21,144 bases of DNA from positions 1 through 21,144 of the IMG/VR virus record IMGVR_UViG_3300036766_001638. One strand, written 5' to 3'. Within the stretch, counting starts at the first letter, position 1. Each line of letters opens with the position of its first letter. Positions 1-12,163 of this stretch are shown one piece after another. The DNA is from a virus. The position numbers and the translations under genes are program-made. The notes below the pieces were generated by a model. The model was not told where the DNA came from, ran no database searches, and worked only from the letters and a program-made list of their open reading frames with translations.

Positions 1-195
1 AGCTACTACTTGAGCTACTACTTGAGCTACTACTTGAGCTACTACTTGAGCTACTACTTGAGCTACTACTTGAGCTACTTGAGCTACTACTTGAACTACT
101 ACTTGAGCTACTACTTGAACTACTACTTGAGCTACTACTTGAACTACTACTTGAACTACTACTACTTGAACTACTACTACTTGAACTACTACTAC
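1..195. repeat. 12-bp tandem repeat encoding poly-Ser (array 1)
   Basis: About 16 units of AGCTACTACTTG on the plus strand, with 9-bp and 15-bp variants and AGCT/AACT alternation. On the minus strand each unit reads TCA AGT AGT AGC or AGT, four serines. All length variants are multiples of three, so the frame is kept. The array reaches base 1, so its true length is unknown. Confidence 0.9.
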
Positions 196-1348
196 AAAGT
201 AAAAACCTCCATTCTACTTTCGGACAACAATCTGGAGGACAGCACTTACAACAGCATACTTTTTTACCTCTTTTAAATGGTCCATGACATTTCTTATTTC
301 CAGTCAAAACTAAAGTTACAACTACTTCACAATGGCAAGACGTAGTACTACTTGAGCTACTACTACTTGAACTACTACTTGAGCTACTACTACTTGAACT
401 ACTACTTGAGCTACTACTTGAGCTACTACTTGAGCTACTACTTGAGCTACTACTTGAGCTACTACTTGAGCTACTACTTGAGCTACTACTTGAGCTACTA
501 CTTGAGCTACTACTTGAACTACTACTTGAACTACTAAAACTAGATAAAGAAGAACTAGATGAGCTAGAACTATCGCTAGAACTAGAACTAGAACTAGAAC
601 TAGAACTATCGCTAGAACTAGATGAGCTAGAACTAGAATCGCTAGAACTAGAATCGCTAGAACTAGAACTAGAACTACTAGATGAAGAACTAGATGAGCT
701 AGAGCTACTTGAATAAGTTAAACGAACTAAGCCATCAGCACCAGTGTTACCCGTGCCGCCAACAGCACCATCCCAAGCACCACCACCTCCACCACCGCCA
801 TAATTATTGCCCGAAACTCCTGCACTCTGGCCTGACCCGCCATTACCACCAGCACCACCAGGAGCCGTACTTGTCCCTCCAGCGCCACCCGTACCGCCGC
901 CGCCACCATTTCCACCATCTGTCCCATCTGCTGAAGTTCTTGCCGCACCACCTCCACCACCTCCACCACTAGGCGTGAGAACCGAACCATTGCCGCCTCT
1001 TCCACCAGTATGAAAAACATCACCTGTTCCTGGACCGCCATTGCCACCAGAACCAGCAACGGCACCTTTTCCTCCACCGCCATTAGCCGGACCAGGACCG
1101 TCGAAATTAGAATCTTCTCCATCAATGCCCGATGCACCACCACTGCCTACTGTAACTGCATATATATTCCCAGGTATAACACTGTAAGAATTTGCTTTAC
1201 CATAACCGCCACCACCGCCACCGCCACCAGCACCACCAAAATTTCCAAGTACGCCGCCGCCGCCGCCACCCCAGCATTCAATAGTAACAATTGTAACGCC
1301 ATCGGGTGCGGTCCATGACCCAGAAGATGTAAATGTATCAGTTGGCAT
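1..1348 (-). CDS. Glycine-rich / poly-serine / Cys-rich tail fibre-like protein (partial, open at left edge)
   Basis: At least 448 codons are read on the minus strand from ATG at 1348 with no stop down to base 1. An in-frame TAA at 1360-1358 fixes the 5' limit. Residues 1-26 (SSGSWTAPDGVTIVTIECWG) match the opening of the glycine-rich domain common at the ends of phage tail fibres. Residues 27-205 are Gly/Ala/Asn rich, ending near GLVRLTY. From about residue 212 the protein is almost pure serine. At residues 336-385 an island with 11 Cys and 2 His (CHC, CCCKCC and DCC motifs) interrupts it, then serine resumes to the window edge. No clear Shine-Dalgarno is seen; a late-promoter-like CTAAATA lies 6 bases before the ATG. 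Inference: a virion appendage, perhaps an adhesive fibre. The glycine-rich family assignment is fairly firm, the role less so. Confidence 0.75.
   Translation of the reverse strand, partial: MPTDTFTSSGSWTAPDGVTIVTIECWGGGGGGVLGNFGGAGGGGGGGGYGKANSYSVIPGNIYAVTVGSGGASGIDGEDSNFDGPGPANGGGGKGAVAGSGGNGGPGTGDVFHTGGRGGNGSVLTPSGGGGGGGAARTSADGTDGGNGGGGGTGGAGGTSTAPGGAGGNGGSGQSAGVSGNNYGGGGGGGAWDGAVGGTGNTGADGLVRLTYSSSSSSSSSSSSSSSSSSSDSSSSDSSSSSSSSSDSSSSSSSSSSSDSSSSSSSSLSSFSSSSSSSSSSSSSSSSSSSSSSSSSSSSSSSSSSSSSSSSSSSSSSSSSSSSSSSSSSSSSSSTTSCHCEVVVTLVLTGNKKCHGPFKRGKKVCCCKCCPPDCCPKVEWRFLLCSSSSSSSSSSSSSSSSSSSSSSSSSSSSSSSSSSSSSSSSSSSSSSSSSSSSSSSSSSSSSSSS
350..535. repeat. 12-bp tandem repeat encoding poly-Ser (array 2)
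   Basis: A second block of the same 12-bp unit as at 1-195, including nine perfect consecutive copies at about 409-516 and 15-bp variants near its start. It encodes serine on the minus strand. It is separated from array 1 by the Cys-rich island at 194-343, which is not repetitive at DNA level. Confidence 0.9.
538..713. repeat. 6-bp AGAACT-type repeat encoding Ser with occasional Asp
   Basis: Repeats built from AGAACT, with AGCTAGATG and ATCGCT interruptions. On the minus strand they read TCT AGT pairs with interspersed GAT (Asp) and TCA. The amino acid bias matches the neighbouring arrays but the codons differ (TCT/AGT rather than TCA/AGT/AGC), so this tract arose by a separate expansion. 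Confidence 0.85.
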
Positions 1349-6004: not shown

Positions 6005-6531
6005 TAATCTGAAGACTCTGCTGTTAACAAGTACATTTCTTTCTCTTTAACTATACTTTTAACTCTCCACCATCTCTTCTCGCTAATTCTTGGATAAAGT
6101 ATAGAGCCTACAGTAACAGATTTTGTATTAATCCACATTTTAATGTACAAATCATTGTGGTCTTGTAAAATTGCTTCAAATACAAATTTTTTACCATAAC
6201 TAACTTTTTTGTATTTTTCTCCATACAGAGGGTCAGTTATTTCAGTATAAAATCCAGGCAAACACCAAACTTGAATTTTGTTTTCAATTTCAGCAACGGT
6301 TGGAACTTTAATAGCTTCTACAATTTTTGGCTCTATTGGTTTATTAAAAACAGCTTCACGGATTATTTCTCTAGTTATCAACTCCTTGGTAACTTCCACA
6401 TTCTGTTCATCTTCAACCCATTTGCCAAATTTATTGTGAAGAACATAATCATACCAAATTTCTTGAGAAATCATAACAGGATTAGGTTTAGAAATCATGA
6501 ATTCACTTCCGTCATTATTTATAAGTGTCAT
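5986..6531 (-). CDS. Conserved-looking hypothetical phage protein
   Basis: 181 residues from ATG at 6531. Not firmly recognised, but the C-terminus (KRWWRVKSIVKEKEMYLLTA, then SSDYYPDF) has a beta-rich RWW-V ending like that of small proteins near neck genes in T4-like genomes. Segment 95-160 is aromatic-rich and probably beta-structured; the N-terminal half is charged and helical. Three starts compete. 6549 overlaps the divergent gene. 6531 has TATTATA against the ATG, like the gene at 2618. 6498 has GGAAG about 8 bases upstream and TATAAATA at 6516-6523. I chose 6531 because the residues after it (NNDGSEFMISKPNPVMIS) read like protein. Confidence 0.6.
   Translation of the reverse strand: MTLINNDGSEFMISKPNPVMISQEIWYDYVLHNKFGKWVEDEQNVEVTKELITREIIREAVFNKPIEPKIVEAIKVPTVAEIENKIQVWCLPGFYTEITDPLYGEKYKKVSYGKKFVFEAILQDHNDLYIKMWINTKSVTVGSILYPRISEKRWWRVKSIVKEKEMYLLTAESSDYYPDFS
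6516..6523 (-). promoter_or_regulatory. TATAAATA late-promoter box, minus strand
   Basis: The plus strand reads TATTTATA, an exact minus-strand TATAAATA. It would give a leader of about 10 bases containing GGAAG before ATG 6498. If active it favours 6498 as the start of the minus-strand gene. It lies within the longer reading frame from 6531, so it may be chance. Confidence 0.35.
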
Positions 6532-6547
6532 TATAATATATATTTTC

Positions 6548-7141
6548 ATGCTACGTAATTGTGATGGACAGCCACTAAAATTGGGATGCGGGGGAGGAGA
6601 AAGTCCTTTATCTCAGTTTGATCCAGAAAATCCTGACTTAAATCTTTTTAATTCTTTCGATGCAGAACTTATAAATATTGCAGGAACTCCGATATTCTAC
6701 TATGAACTTTTTATACAAAAGAACACTATAGACCCACTATATAGAGAGGATCGTGGCAAGATATGGGCCATTACGCCAATAGAGCTTAGAGGTTACTATG
6801 AGCCTATACCATCTCAAAATTATGTAAATATGTTCGGCACAGATGCTCCTGATGAAATGAAATTTGAATTTAATTATAGGGAAGTACTTAAAAAATTAGG
6901 ACATCCACCAAAATTAGGATCGAGATTGTTTACGCCTCACAAGAGAGAAAATTGGGTTATTGTTCAGCGTAATGTAGGTGAATTTAGGCTGTGGGGTGAA
7001 TTAAGGTTATTAATTATAGCCCAAAGATTCCAAGAATCTGTTACTACAAAAGAAGGAGCGGTCACACAAGGACAAGTTACACCACCAATTCATTTAAATG
7101 ATGGAGCATTATTTACTAATCCAGACTCTTCTAAATGTTAA
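6548..7141 (+). CDS. Putative neck / head-completion protein, T4 gp14-like
   Basis: 197 residues from ATG at 6548. After a Cys/Gly-rich N-terminus (MLRNCDGQPLKLGCGGG) comes a segment typical of neck proteins: YYELFIQKNTIDPLYREDRG (about 52-71), then PDEMKFEFNYREVLKKLG, GSRLFTPHKRENWVIVQRN and WGELRLLIIAQRFQES. This order (Y-L/F with D-x-LY-E, a GS/GD turn, then W-I/V strands) is what I associate with the gp14 family, which sits between portal and tail with gp13. Location between gp13-like and gp15 genes supports it. No Shine-Dalgarno; an AT-rich box (TATAATATA) lies 8-16 bases upstream. The 3' end overlaps the convergent nuclease-like gene by 11 bases. The family match is by pattern, not alignment. 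Confidence 0.55.
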   Translation: MLRNCDGQPLKLGCGGGESPLSQFDPENPDLNLFNSFDAELINIAGTPIFYYELFIQKNTIDPLYREDRGKIWAITPIELRGYYEPIPSQNYVNMFGTDAPDEMKFEFNYREVLKKLGHPPKLGSRLFTPHKRENWVIVQRNVGEFRLWGELRLLIIAQRFQESVTTKEGAVTQGQVTPPIHLNDGALFTNPDSSKC

Positions 7142-8459
7142 AAATCTGTCTAAAATAAGGTAAGCCGCCAAAACTTCTAATAGCTCTAAATAAAGTTGTA
7201 TTTTTTATTTCAGATTGCCTGGGGAAATGGCCTACGTCTGAAATCAGTTTTTTCAATTCCAACTCTACTTTATCAAAAGTCCAATATCCATTCCTATGCC
7301 TGCTAATATTAATATTCAATCTATCTTGAAAATGATAAATTCCACCAAACTGTCTTATTCCGTTAATCAATGGGTATTCATTTAATTTTTCAAGATCACT
7401 GAAAGAAGGGAATTTATTCAAATTTACAGTTATTAATTTAAGTTTATTTAAAACTTTTTCTTCAGTCCAAAAACCATCTTTAGTTTTATTTGGCGTACAC
7501 TCAAATTTATTAATAAAATATTCAGTTCCACCATATCTTCTTACGCCATTATAGAGTGAAATTTCATATCTCATCATTTCTTTTATTGTAGGAAATCTTC
7601 CTAGCTTGTTTATTAATTTATTTAAACTGTCTTCTACTTTAGCTTTCGACCAAAGTATAAATGAAGCTACACCTGTTTCAACCATTTTAATAAAATTGCC
7701 TTTTCTAGAAACATCAATACCATAAGAAGATAATGTTTCATCAAATATTTTTTCCATTTCGAGTAAAGGCTTAGTAAAAACATTATATTCAAAAGGCATT
7801 AAAATTAAACTATGTTCTTTGTAAAATAACTCTTTCTTTGCCCTTCTTAATGCATAAGAAACATTTCTATTATTTTGGCTGTTAGGATTAAATCCCCAAA
7901 TCTCTACAAATATACTACCTATTTTAAAATCATATTTCAGTCTTGTTTTATTTGGAATAATAATTTTATTTACCTCATGATTTATTCCTCTAGAACTAAG
8001 ATATTCATCAAAAAAATATTCATTAATACTATGTAAAAAATGCCCATCCGAAGCTTTAATATATTTAGAGCCAGAATCATATCCCATAATTCTCGATAGT
8101 TCTTTTATACCTCCTAGCCTAAATATAGGCTTAGAAATAGACTGTCCTAATTTTGCTTGTATTTCTTTTAAGGAAGGAAACCTATTGCCCGTTATTATAG
8201 ATTTAACAGCAGAAATTACATTATTTAAATCATTCCAATAATTGCGGGACTTTCTTTCAGTAGTTAAACTAAGCTTGGTAGCTATTTTTGCGGTTCCACC
8301 AAATTTCTTGTCAATTGCAGTTGCGGCGGATGGTCCTAATTTTTCTCTTATCACTTTCCTGGAAGGAAGAATATTATTTTCGCAAATAGACAGTAACTCT
8401 CTAGATAAGTTAGACCAATTATACCAATATAAATAAGAATTTTTATCACAATTGCTCAT
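7131..8459 (-). CDS. PD-(D/E)XK nuclease-like protein with five flanking W...P...GG repeats (putative free-standing homing endonuclease)
   Basis: 442 residues from ATG 8459. Five copies of a 45-55 residue repeat share an aromatic/Trp start, an FP or LP, a basic/acidic helix and GG followed by a helix. Two lie N-terminal (about 10-64 and 74-127; e.g. RFPSLKEIQAKLG, then FRLGG). Three lie C-terminal (about 269-320, 330-383, 392-442; e.g. GFWTEEKV, KFPSFSDL, IRQFGG). Between them, residues 138-248 carry a PD-(D/E)XK-like core: E147 in SINEYFF, D177 in YDF, E186 in VEIWG, and K208/K209 in RRAKKELFY. Similar repeats occur in algal and phage nucleic-acid-binding proteins. Inference: repeats bind DNA and the core cuts it, as in homing endonucleases. 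It runs against the tail genes on both sides, consistent with a mobile insertion. No Shine-Dalgarno is present. Confidence 0.6.
   Translation of the reverse strand: MSNCDKNSYLYWYNWSNLSRELLSICENNILPSRKVIREKLGPSAATAIDKKFGGTAKIATKLSLTTERKSRNYWNDLNNVISAVKSIITGNRFPSLKEIQAKLGQSISKPIFRLGGIKELSRIMGYDSGSKYIKASDGHFLHSINEYFFDEYLSSRGINHEVNKIIIPNKTRLKYDFKIGSIFVEIWGFNPNSQNNRNVSYALRRAKKELFYKEHSLILMPFEYNVFTKPLLEMEKIFDETLSSYGIDVSRKGNFIKMVETGVASFILWSKAKVEDSLNKLINKLGRFPTIKEMMRYEISLYNGVRRYGGTEYFINKFECTPNKTKDGFWTEEKVLNKLKLITVNLNKFPSFSDLEKLNEYPLINGIRQFGGIYHFQDRLNINISRHRNGYWTFDKVELELKKLISDVGHFPRQSEIKNTTLFRAIRSFGGLPYFRQIFNI
8428..8435 (+). promoter_or_regulatory. T4-type late promoter for the gp15-sheath-tube operon
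   Basis: Exact TATAAATA on the plus strand, 53 bases before the gp15-like ATG at 8489, giving a leader of about 48 bases with AAAGGA before the ATG. It lies inside the 5' coding end of the divergent nuclease-like gene. Its position at the head of the core tail operon makes it the most convincing late promoter in the window. Confidence 0.6.
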
Positions 8460-8488: not shown

Positions 8489-9517
8489 ATGAATTCTAAG
8501 GAATCAAATCTTGAAAAATCTCTAGTAGATTGTGAAACCAAAGAGTTAACCAATTCTATAAATATAGACCCTGTGCCCAAGGAATGTGCAGATGATGGAT
8601 GGCCTAGTCAGAAGAGAGTAGCACAAAGACCATCTACGGATTGGAAACTTAAGCCTACTAGAAGAAAACTAGGAGTGGGACAGTCAGGAATTTGTGATCC
8701 CCTTATGACGGGACAAATTCTAAATGACCTTGATACCCCTAATAGAGAAGTAGTCTATCGTTACACAAGAGCTTTAAGAGGTGCAGATGAAGCAATGCTT
8801 GATTTATTTAGAAATACAGTAGTTTTAGATGAAGAAGGCAAAAGTCACGTAGTTCCTATTTTATGGGCAAGTCAAGAAAAAGCTGTATCTGCTATACTTC
8901 AAGATAATGTTCGCAAAGACAACAGCCTAGTGGTCGATAGAATAAGATTACCTATTATGGCAATATGGGCTAATCAATTAACTTTAGATCAAACAAGATT
9001 TACATATCAAAAAGCTTTATCTTTAATGGAGTGGTTAGACCCAGAAGGGGTAGCTGGTTTTACTTTACAAGAAAAGTTTCAAAAAGACACGATATTTGGT
9101 GTTACTAGAGGTTTGCCAATCAATATAAATTACACTTTGTATGTGTGGACACTCTACATTGAAGACATGAATCAGATTGTAGAACAGGTAATGTTAAAAT
9201 TTTCACCAGTTGCATACATACGAGTTAGAGGAGTATGGTGGGAAGTTATAGTTACGATGGACGGAACAGCTAATAATTTGGATGTAGAGCCTGGAGATGC
9301 TAAGTTAAGAGTTATCAAATATCAGTTTAATATGACAGCCAAAACATACATTCCTCAGCCGATTACTCGACTTAAACCTCCTCTGCCTGTACCTTGCGAG
9401 AATCCTTGTCCAAATACAGAAGAAACGCCATTAGCTGATATGCCTCCAGAGGAATTTGACCAAACATTAAAGGAAATAGAAAAACAAGTTAAGAATCTAA
9501 AACAATGGGAATTTTAA
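8489..9517 (+). CDS. Tail sheath stabilisation / completion protein, T4 gp15-like
   Basis: 342 residues; T4 gp15 is about 272. gp15 forms the hexameric ring that caps the finished tail and joins it to the neck. Family features in order: YRYTRALRGADEAMLDLFRN (about 91-110), the strand VVPILWASQEKAVSAIL, the run VVDRIRLPIMAIWANQLTLD, then LPININYTLYVWTLYIEDMN followed by QIVEQVMLKFSP, which is the most diagnostic (gp15 has a Y-L-I-T-Y-EDM-QIVEQIL-F-P pattern). The N-terminal 85 residues and the C-terminal acidic tail with PCENPCP are additions. AAAGGA precedes ATG by 5 bases. Its last 13 bases overlap the sheath start, suggesting translational coupling. Confidence 0.8.
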   Translation: MNSKESNLEKSLVDCETKELTNSINIDPVPKECADDGWPSQKRVAQRPSTDWKLKPTRRKLGVGQSGICDPLMTGQILNDLDTPNREVVYRYTRALRGADEAMLDLFRNTVVLDEEGKSHVVPILWASQEKAVSAILQDNVRKDNSLVVDRIRLPIMAIWANQLTLDQTRFTYQKALSLMEWLDPEGVAGFTLQEKFQKDTIFGVTRGLPININYTLYVWTLYIEDMNQIVEQVMLKFSPVAYIRVRGVWWEVIVTMDGTANNLDVEPGDAKLRVIKYQFNMTAKTYIPQPITRLKPPLPVPCENPCPNTEETPLADMPPEEFDQTLKEIEKQVKNLKQWEF

Positions 9518-10755
9518 GTGAAAATTATCTTATTGATGAGTTAAAAACAAGTAAAGAATCATCATTAAAATTAGCTTTAATAGGATTTTCAAGCAAAGGA
9601 CCACTCAATTTACCTGTTTGTATTAAGAACGTCAAAGAATTACATCATAATTTTGGAACATATCATCCAAATAAAAACACATATTTAATTCATGTAGCAG
9701 AAGAAATTCTTAAAACAGAATCAGAAGTATTAATTATTCGTGCCAATTTTAATCCTGTTACCGCACAAAACGATAAAATAAAATCTATTACGCCTGGTGC
9801 TGAAGGTAATCTTACTCATGTAAAAGTAGAAAAAGACAAATTAGAAGTTTATTATGATAGCAAGCTAGTTGAAAGTTGGTGTTCTCTCAATATTACAAAA
9901 ATTAACAATAACTCAGACTGGATTCAACTTGACGACAAAATAACAGACGGATTTTATGAACTTTCAGGAGGCAGTGATGGAGAATTTAATGAAAACAATA
10001 TATTAGAATGCCTTAAATCCTTAGAAGATTATGATATAGATATAATTTCTATACCAGGAATAACCTCAATAAATATAATTAATAATTTGTTGGATTTTTG
10101 TGAGAAAAAAAATTATTTTTCAATCATAGATACTCCAGAAAATCTTTCATTTCTGGAGTCATATCGCTGGAAGAATGAATTGAATAAATCAGATTACGGG
10201 GCTGTATTCTGGCCTTGGTTGGGAATATGGGATAAAGGATACGTGCCGCCATGCAGTTTAGTGCTAAACAAATTTTTAGGACTAGAACCTTGGTTAAATG
10301 TTATAAGAGGAAGTAATACTTGTGTCTTAGACTTACAAAAAAGACCATCTAAAGAAGAAAAAATGATAGCTTGTGATAAAGAAAATGTAATTAATATGAT
10401 TAGTTTTATGTGGAGATCAGGAATATTCATTTTGAACAACAGTAAAACTTTAGCTGGTAATGGGATTAACACAAGAAGAATGCTAAATTATTTACGGAAA
10501 AAAATTCAAAGTCACACTACAAAAATAAATATTAAAAGCGCATTTTTTGAAGAAAAGTTCTTAAAAACAAGTAAATATTATTTAGACCAATTAAAAAATG
10601 GTAGGTGTATAGATAACTATACTATCCAGATTGGAGATGGCTTATATTCACCTTCTGAGATAATTAGTAAGTTTAAGGCCAGAATTGGTGTGCAGCCAGT
10701 AGAGACTACAGACTACATCTATTTGGATTTTAAATTAGACTCTGGCTTAAAGTAG
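9505..10755 (+). CDS. Tail sheath protein, T4 gp18-like (compact form)
   Basis: 416 residues. Sheath subunits surround the tube and contract to drive it through the host envelope. Family signatures: N-terminal ALIGFSSKGPLNLP (about 25-38) followed by KNVKELHHNFG; a central ELSGGSDGEF loop; DYGAVFWPWLGIWD then VPPCSLVLN (about 230-255); and the C-terminal beta strand RIGVQPVETTDYIYLDFKLD that forms the inter-subunit mesh. T4 gp18 has 659 residues; the shortfall fits loss of the surface domains, leaving the conserved core. The ATG lies inside the gp15-like gene (13-base overlap), so the two are coupled. It is followed by the tube gene after 23 bases, the usual 15-18-19 order. Confidence 0.9.
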   Translation: MGILSENYLIDELKTSKESSLKLALIGFSSKGPLNLPVCIKNVKELHHNFGTYHPNKNTYLIHVAEEILKTESEVLIIRANFNPVTAQNDKIKSITPGAEGNLTHVKVEKDKLEVYYDSKLVESWCSLNITKINNNSDWIQLDDKITDGFYELSGGSDGEFNENNILECLKSLEDYDIDIISIPGITSINIINNLLDFCEKKNYFSIIDTPENLSFLESYRWKNELNKSDYGAVFWPWLGIWDKGYVPPCSLVLNKFLGLEPWLNVIRGSNTCVLDLQKRPSKEEKMIACDKENVINMISFMWRSGIFILNNSKTLAGNGINTRRMLNYLRKKIQSHTTKINIKSAFFEEKFLKTSKYYLDQLKNGRCIDNYTIQIGDGLYSPSEIISKFKARIGVQPVETTDYIYLDFKLDSGLK

Positions 10756-10778: not shown

Positions 10779-11414
10779 ATGGCATGTGATGGTCCTCTTC
10801 AATCGTGTACAGGCGATGTTTGTTCGGCTGATGCCTCTGGCTTTAGAGAAATGGGTTTGGGATTACTTGGTGATCCGTCTATAGTTTTCAAACGAAAATT
10901 TAGATGGACGCTAATAATTTGTTTTTGTAGTGGAAGTAAATTTGTTCCAGAATCTTTCGTTAAGATGGGTGCTAGACCTAATTTAGACATAGAAGAAACA
11001 CAGATTGACTTTTTGCATGGTAGATTTTGGCTACCAGGCAAGGTTACTTTCAATGAAATGCAAGTAACTTATTATGACGTTGCAGGAACAGTAGCAGGAC
11101 AGCCAAGTACAGCTTCTATTTTCGATTGGATAGCTACTGTATATGATATTACCGATCCTACCTGCTTAAAAATGGGTAACAGAGCAGACTATGAAGGCAC
11201 GGGCATTATGAGATTATATGATGGATGCGGTCAAACAATCGAAGCATGGACAATTGAAGGGATGTGGCCGAAGAGTGTAGATTTCGGAGAACTTGATATG
11301 ACAAGTTCTGACGAATGTACAATTCAGTTAACATTAAGATATAGAAACTTACAATACAATAGCTGCTGTCCAACTAGCGCTATTACTCGCTGTGAATGTA
11401 CTCCTTGTGCGTAA
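10779..11414 (+). CDS. Tail tube protein, T4 gp19-like
   Basis: 211 residues (T4 gp19 has 163). The tube forms the inner channel inside the sheath. Tube-fold hallmarks: FKRKFRWTLIICFC (about 36-49), the strand KVTFNEMQVTYYD, SIFDWIATVYD, the loop MRLYDGCGQTIEAWTIEGMW, and FGELDMTSSDECTIQLTLRY near the C-terminus. The gene sits directly after the sheath with AAAGGAG before the ATG, and ends in a strong terminator at 11429-11461, as expected for a highly expressed late gene. It is unusually cysteine-rich: about 13 Cys, clustered at both ends (MACDGPLQSCTGDVC; CCPTSAITRCECTPCA). Confidence 0.9.
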   Translation: MACDGPLQSCTGDVCSADASGFREMGLGLLGDPSIVFKRKFRWTLIICFCSGSKFVPESFVKMGARPNLDIEETQIDFLHGRFWLPGKVTFNEMQVTYYDVAGTVAGQPSTASIFDWIATVYDITDPTCLKMGNRADYEGTGIMRLYDGCGQTIEAWTIEGMWPKSVDFGELDMTSSDECTIQLTLRYRNLQYNSCCPTSAITRCECTPCA

Positions 11415-11485: not shown

Positions 11486-12163
11486 ATGGCTTGCGGTACT
11501 GATGAACCAATGGGATTTGATTTCCATGATGAATGGGGAGACATGTCCGCTGTTTGTTTTAAAAGGAAATTTAGATGGTTATTTGTAATACCAGATATTT
11601 CTGCAAACGGCACAGGAAGCTTGCCTCCATCTAAAGCAGCAAGACCAAATTTCAGTTTTAAAGAAATGGAAGCTCCGCACCTTAATGAAACTATATTTTT
11701 CCCATCCAAACCAGAATGGAAGCCAGTTAATTTAACATTATTTGATATTAAAAAAGAAACAGAAAATCCTATTTTTTCTTGGTTGAAACGAGCATATAAT
11801 CCTGCAAATTGTTCTAGATGGTATCCTGCCTTAGATACTCCCTCTTTAAAAGTAGGACAAGCTGAACTCTCTTTATTTGATGGTTGTGGACAAGTAATAG
11901 AAACATGGGTATTTGAACATGCATGGCCACAAACTGTAGAATTTGGTGATTTAGATATGTCCCAAAGTGAAGTTCTTACTTGTGATGTAACTTTGAGATA
12001 TGATAGAGCCTATATAGTCTACCCTACAAGTGCTGCTACTATATCATTTAGTCCAACGATATCTAATTGTGCTATTTCATCATCTCCAATTGTTTGTTCA
12101 AATATTCCATTAATGGAGGTTCCAGAATTAGAATTTGGTAAATTCTTTTTTACAGAAGATTAA
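11486..12163 (+). CDS. Second tail tube-like protein (gp19 paralogue)
   Basis: 225 residues, clearly paralogous to the upstream tube gene: VCFKRKFRWLFVIPD, VNLTLFDI, IFSWLKRAYN, AELSLFDGCGQVIETWVFEH, WPQTVEFGDLDMSQSE and VTLRYDRAY align with the first copy in the same order. It carries a C-terminal extension of about 45 residues rich in Ser, Ile and Cys, ending in acidic/aromatic residues. It has its own start signals after the terminator: a TATATATTA box at 11464-11472 and GAGGG 8 bases before ATG. So it is probably expressed separately and at a different level. Possible roles are tube initiator or terminator, a gp54-like cap, or a second tube ring type; the sequence does not decide. Confidence 0.8.
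   Translation: MACGTDEPMGFDFHDEWGDMSAVCFKRKFRWLFVIPDISANGTGSLPPSKAARPNFSFKEMEAPHLNETIFFPSKPEWKPVNLTLFDIKKETENPIFSWLKRAYNPANCSRWYPALDTPSLKVGQAELSLFDGCGQVIETWVFEHAWPQTVEFGDLDMSQSEVLTCDVTLRYDRAYIVYPTSAATISFSPTISNCAISSSPIVCSNIPLMEVPELEFGKFFFTED

Follow-up and report, generated by a model that had tools for sequence, protein, structure and literature searches.

In phage homing enzymes such as those of T4 and ICP1, the DNA-binding domains and the nuclease generally sit at opposite ends of the protein (PMC10448857), while enzymes of the I-Ssp6803I family have a compact, multimeric form (PMC3943268). The T4 seg and mob genes and F-CphI of cyanophage S-PM2 are optional genes lying in spacers between conserved phage genes (PMC2988022, PMC6083498), and the gene described here, P0001, has a setting of the same kind. 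It lies in a 21,144-base virus record (IMGVR_UViG_3300036766_001638, the whole of which was analyzed and is called the window here), the closest named relative of which is the 595-kb phage LR756511.1. We consider it probable that P0001 is a free-standing (not intron-encoded) gene of the homing-endonuclease type in a huge T4-like phage, its product having a PD-(D/E)XK-type cutter in the middle and repeats that would bind DNA to either side of it. Computation supports this reading in that repeats are present, the predicted catalytic residues are conserved, a fitting fold is predicted, the gene is optional at its site, and other nuclease or mobile genes occur in the same spacer; what we infer is that the repeats contact DNA on each side, that the core cleaves a target, and that the gene homes.

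The gp14-gp15 spacer and its occupants

P0001 occupies positions 7131 to 8459 on the minus strand as an uninterrupted open reading frame of 442 codons, with an ATG start at 8459. Just as originally noted, it runs antisense to the gp14-like gene, the two sharing 11 nt where their stop codons lie, and it is antisense to its other neighbor as well. To its left lies a gp14-like neck or head closure protein gene (6497-7141, plus strand), and to its right a gp15-like tail sheath stabilizer gene (8489-9517, plus strand), whose assignment by Pfam match (T4-gp15_tss, E=1.7e-17) is secure. Support for the predicted gp14 identity comes entirely through orthologues in relatives, as 4 of 11 match head closure Hc2 (phrog_679, best E=1.5e-4) and one matches the Pfam T4_neck-protein family (E=0.17). 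The P0001 product is basic (pI 9.7); for the products of its neighbors, gp14 through the tail tubes, pI values are 4.6-6.2.

Gene order around the locus is much alike in LR756511. Directly after gp15 the window has a tail sheath gene (9505-10755, plus strand), followed by two adjacent tail tube paralogues (10779-11414 and 11486-12163, plus strand; both phrog_4542). In LR756511, where gp15 is kept, the tail tube gene follows it directly, and a search of the 595-kb genome at E <= 1e-3 revealed no relative of the tail sheath gene. The left end of the window (1-707) holds long tandem arrays with units of 12 bases (43.7 copies) and 15 bases (11.5 copies); they read as SYYL/NYYL-type frames and may be intergenic or an artefact of the record end. 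No Shine-Dalgarno-like sequence was evident before the P0001 start codon, and scans for sigma-70 promoters and terminators returned nothing above chance. A late-promoter-like TATAAATA at 8428-8435, 5' of gp15, was dropped as evidence, because its five occurrences across the window do not exceed chance (3.6 expected).

Among 83 related loci compared at gp14-gp15, which include near-identical contigs so that counts are not independent, P0001 is present in one. The two flanking genes are 8 bp apart in LR756511 and 3-27 bp apart in seven IMG/VR relatives, giving eight tight alleles, and a tree of gp14 and gp15 places the window inside a fully supported clade of 14 rows that holds all eight. P0001 is thus optional, lying between conserved genes at a site for which empty alleles exist, as is expected of a free-standing homing gene. 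Within the same clade, one relative (L014) carries a TnpB/OrfB gene in this spacer (L014:6859-7626, minus strand), and another (L015) an endonuclease-VII/HNH-like gene, whose motif is present in two copies (L015:5655-6659, minus strand). Adjoining the TnpB gene is a further frame (L014:6307-6771, minus strand), the C-terminal part of which resembles a head-tail adaptor fragment (DPNKPIYGKQGEWVTYKQIEQ).

A different, unrelated and conserved gene, always antisense, is resident in the spacer in 40 of the 83 rows, two of them in the clade (L006:4902-5762 and L016:7617-8492, both minus strand) and 38 outside of it; it carries the motif KYRTWYKG..PIKLQIPGWAG, and the one copy searched had no Pfam match. 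The original statement that gp14 and gp15 adjoin in T4-like phages holds for the eight near relatives, but not for the many distant ones that carry this other gene. Since the resident gene is so frequent, the empty state in near relatives may itself derive from its loss, and P0001 is optional at the site regardless of whether the empty alleles arose in this way. With TnpB and endonuclease-VII/HNH-like genes there in two relatives, the spacer looks like an insertion hotspot.

The occupancy of the spacer also bears on whether P0001 is instead a sequence-specific nuclease with a non-homing role, directed against competing phages, satellites or host DNA (as a domesticated, marker exclusion or anti-satellite enzyme). 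Phage nucleases of the homing type have been adapted to such roles (PMC10448857), SegB amplifies anti-defence genes (PMC13096335), and P0001 does sit among late structural genes; however, a spacer shared by unrelated nuclease and mobile genes, and empty in eight relatives, fits optional mobile genes, which makes a purely non-homing role unlikely. Homing and anti-competitor roles could also be combined in the same enzyme.

A predicted PD-(D/E)XK-type core

The nuclease core of P0001 spans aa 130-250 (7710-8072, minus strand), and the same domain occurs in bacteria, plasmids and a phage contig. Invariant in a 20-sequence alignment are D138, G139, H140, S144, E147, L154, H161, P169, D177, E186, G189 and K209, although the invariance of the first five is partly built in, because the other rows were found with a search pattern that includes the DGH...S..E stretch; D177, E186 and K209 lie outside the pattern. 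On the minus strand, the codons of the four predicted catalytic residues are at 8019-8021 (E147, the acid of helix A), 7929-7931 (D177), 7902-7904 (E186, within VEIWG) and 7833-7835 (K209, the helix lysine). The three acids and a lysine at 208 or 209 had been named in advance, and the acids are in place and invariant, as is K209, while K208 is not conserved.

An AlphaFold2 model of the core (pLDDT 86.6, pTM 0.80) has, by DSSP, helices at 21-32 and 74-91 and strands at 54-56, 59-64 and 95-100, and shows the alpha-beta-beta-beta-alpha-beta topology of the PD-(D/E)XK fold, with the acids expected on helix A and two strands present as E147, D177 and E186. Its best PDB match is the catalytic domain of I-Bth0305I (3r3p; E=0.027, probability 0.97), which is also the first PDB match of the full-length model (probability 1.0). 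Restriction-type nucleases are among the Foldseek matches of the core as well. With Foldseek E-values this weak (0.027 and 0.077), the case for the fold depends on the topology taken together with the conserved residues. The PD-(D/E)XK-like fold foreseen in the original prediction was thus recovered; both outcomes named there as counting against it, a model lacking this fold and an absence of empty-site alleles, were looked for, and neither was found. The canonical ExK motif is absent, as the last motif reads E186-I-W188 and the invariant lysine sits in the next helix (K209), and by its sequence the core is a shifted-lysine variant of the PD-(D/E)XK type. The core profile also matches nucleases of phages EFP01 and Eldridge, which themselves match homing endonuclease families. 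Assignment to the T7 endonuclease I family was rejected, as it had only a weak core-profile sequence match (E=0.05).

These residues are relevant to another reading, in which P0001 is a DNA-binding regulator of the tail genes, derived from a dead or dying nuclease and replacing the resident antisense gene of its relatives. That a different antisense gene occupies the spacer in so many loci indicates that such a gene can be tolerated or useful there, and intron-encoded homing enzymes of T4 double as repressors (PMC2988022). In P0001, however, the DGH motif and each of the four residues predicted to be catalytic are preserved, the frame is free of stop codons, and tblastn found no similarity between it and the resident gene, so that we think a replacement regulator quite improbable.

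Five repeats around the core

Five related repeats of about 55 aa, all with W, P and GG in common, are arranged in P0001 as two before the core and three after it. On the minus strand these are R1 (aa 12-66; 8262-8426) and R2 (aa 73-127; 8079-8243), each with a net charge of +5, followed beyond the core by R3 (aa 268-323; 7491-7658), R4 (aa 328-385; 7305-7478) and R5 (aa 389-442; 7134-7295). This 2 + core + 3 arrangement had been read from the sequence alone, and leave-one-out profiles bear it out, as each omitted repeat was recovered at 14.8-44.5 bits, a score reached by 0 of 1000 shuffles per repeat. In pairwise shuffle tests, R1 with R2 and R3 to R5 among themselves were significant, while R1 against R4 and R1 against R5 were not; R1 and R2 are the more divergent repeats. 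The full-length model (pLDDT 73), in which the repeats are modeled less well than the core, has a similar four-helix pattern in each repeat, for R2 at low confidence (mostly < 50).

One stretch only, at aa 277-303 within R3, matches Pfam PF18780 (HNH_repeat, "homing endonuclease associated repeat") at E=2.2e-5, its 25.1 bits falling a little short of the curated cut-off (26). A repeat of the P0001 type also ends a LAGLIDADG_2 protein (469 aa) encoded by a related 527-kb phage, and R5 is 45% identical to that repeat. In that phage (L069:13161-15322, plus strand) an HNH-like gene is followed by the LAGLIDADG_2 gene, which encodes two zinc-finger-like DUF4379 units in addition to the single C-terminal repeat. 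Searching phages with R3-R5 alone gave no match; one repeat alignment (A6) was too divergent for scanning, and scanning with another (A7) returned the LAGLIDADG gene of the 527-kb phage only. PF18780 found nothing in 16 related phage records at E <= 0.01, a search we judge insensitive because the LAGLIDADG-linked repeat is present there and was missed.

No close relative of the whole protein was found in phages, viral contigs or genome contigs by single-sequence search, nor was any relative found in 23 related phage records, except for the single repeat in the LAGLIDADG protein. Movement of P0001 is therefore deduced from presence and absence alone, no second copy having been found. By structure, an uncharacterized 437-aa protein in BFVD (A0A8S5SVB1, Siphoviridae sp. 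ctqPo10) aligns with P0001 over 420 columns (Foldseek E=3.6e-10, 17% identity), almost its whole length, so the architecture of P0001 may not be unique. A different nuclease (L163:1414-2385, minus strand; LR756511 near 63.7 kb) resembles phage endonuclease families, with three repeats at its N-terminus and VEIKG as a canonical motif, and these huge phages carry several homing-type genes.

The repeats also separate P0001 from an ordinary host-derived or restriction-type DGH...S..E nuclease acquired by chance. Bacteria and plasmids do have the same core, joined there to KilAC (ANT) or other domains, but none of the bacterial core proteins examined carries P0001 repeats by repeat profile, the repeats are of the homing-enzyme kind, and no methylase gene is evident in the 21,144-base window; we regard a chance acquisition as highly improbable.

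Proposed mechanism and comparison with known enzymes

For P0001 as a homing-type gene, we propose that the two N-terminal and three C-terminal helical units of the HNH_repeat type would bind DNA on either side of the core, which would cut with E147, D177, E186, K209 and Mg2+. The cut would fall in a phage genome free of the gene during mixed infection, with gp14 or gp15 as its probable, or at least possible, place. By recombinational repair, with the genome that carries P0001 as the template, the gene would then be copied into the cut genome. The pathway behind this proposal is homing as reviewed (PMC2988022, PMC6083498). The two blocks of repeats point to DNA contacts on either side of the cut, and holding the cutter between two repeat sets would, if true, be a natural way to read a long target from both sides. 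More tentatively, this two-sided homing enzyme may be one of a group of phage mobile genes that trade a repeat type between nuclease classes (PD-(D/E)XK here, LAGLIDADG in the 527-kb phage) and compete with TnpB and endonuclease-VII genes for the one spacer, a possibility that we would not put quite as high as even. Repeats common to P0001 and the LAGLIDADG enzyme of a related huge phage would show that DNA-reading modules pass from one nuclease class to an unrelated one. As a landing site, the gp14-gp15 spacer seems to have served three or more nuclease or transposon genes that are unrelated to one another, and insertion and homing in uncultured huge phages are therefore testable with cloned alleles.

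Among characterized enzymes, the best fold match to the core is I-Bth0305I (EDxHD or Vsr-like; 3r3p), also of phage origin. Of the EDxHD residues, placed via the EFP01 and Eldridge relatives, P0001 has the E and first D (E147, D177), whereas the H and second D are absent and it keeps E, D, E and a helix K. The EFP01 and Eldridge proteins have IEYNGxQH and IEFDGSHH, and further on a D that precedes the helix lysine; P0001 has VEIWGFNP and ALRRAKKE there. This motif comparison was made by eye and profile, from reviews and phage relatives rather than a solved complex. P0001 may work like an EDxHD enzyme, but is not classed as one because the motif H and D are absent, and, unlike I-Bth0305I, it has DNA-binding-type repeats flanking the core on both sides. 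I-Ssp6803I, the PD-(D/E)XK homing enzyme named originally, is the less close comparison: the core fold is nearer to I-Bth0305I, no I-Ssp6803I structure was among the top 50 fold matches, and I-Ssp6803I is a compact multimerizing core without separate DNA-binding repeats, whereas P0001 has five outside its core. Bacterial and plasmid DGH...S..E nucleases (e.g. Methylotuvimicrobium WP_014133139) share the core and its invariant E, D, E and K, and have KilAC/ANT or other domains in place of the repeats.

The T4 seg and mob enzymes and F-CphI, similar in genomic setting, are GIY-YIG, HNH or endonuclease-VII enzymes, whereas the P0001 core is of the PD-(D/E)XK type; an endonuclease-VII-like gene does lie in the spacer of a clade member (L015). 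The PF18780 family, matched just under its cut-off, is presumably named for HNH enzymes; in P0001 the core that such repeats surround is of the PD-(D/E)XK type, and the single repeat in the 527-kb phage comes after a LAGLIDADG core. The architecture had originally been put forward as one not recognized from described families, a claim weakened by the Pfam match to a known homing-enzyme repeat and by A0A8S5SVB1, which by structural alignment alone possibly has the same arrangement. What stands is that the sandwich is unusual: each part of P0001 is of an already known kind, but in comparison with the T4 and ICP1 enzymes the cutter is central, with repeats on both sides.
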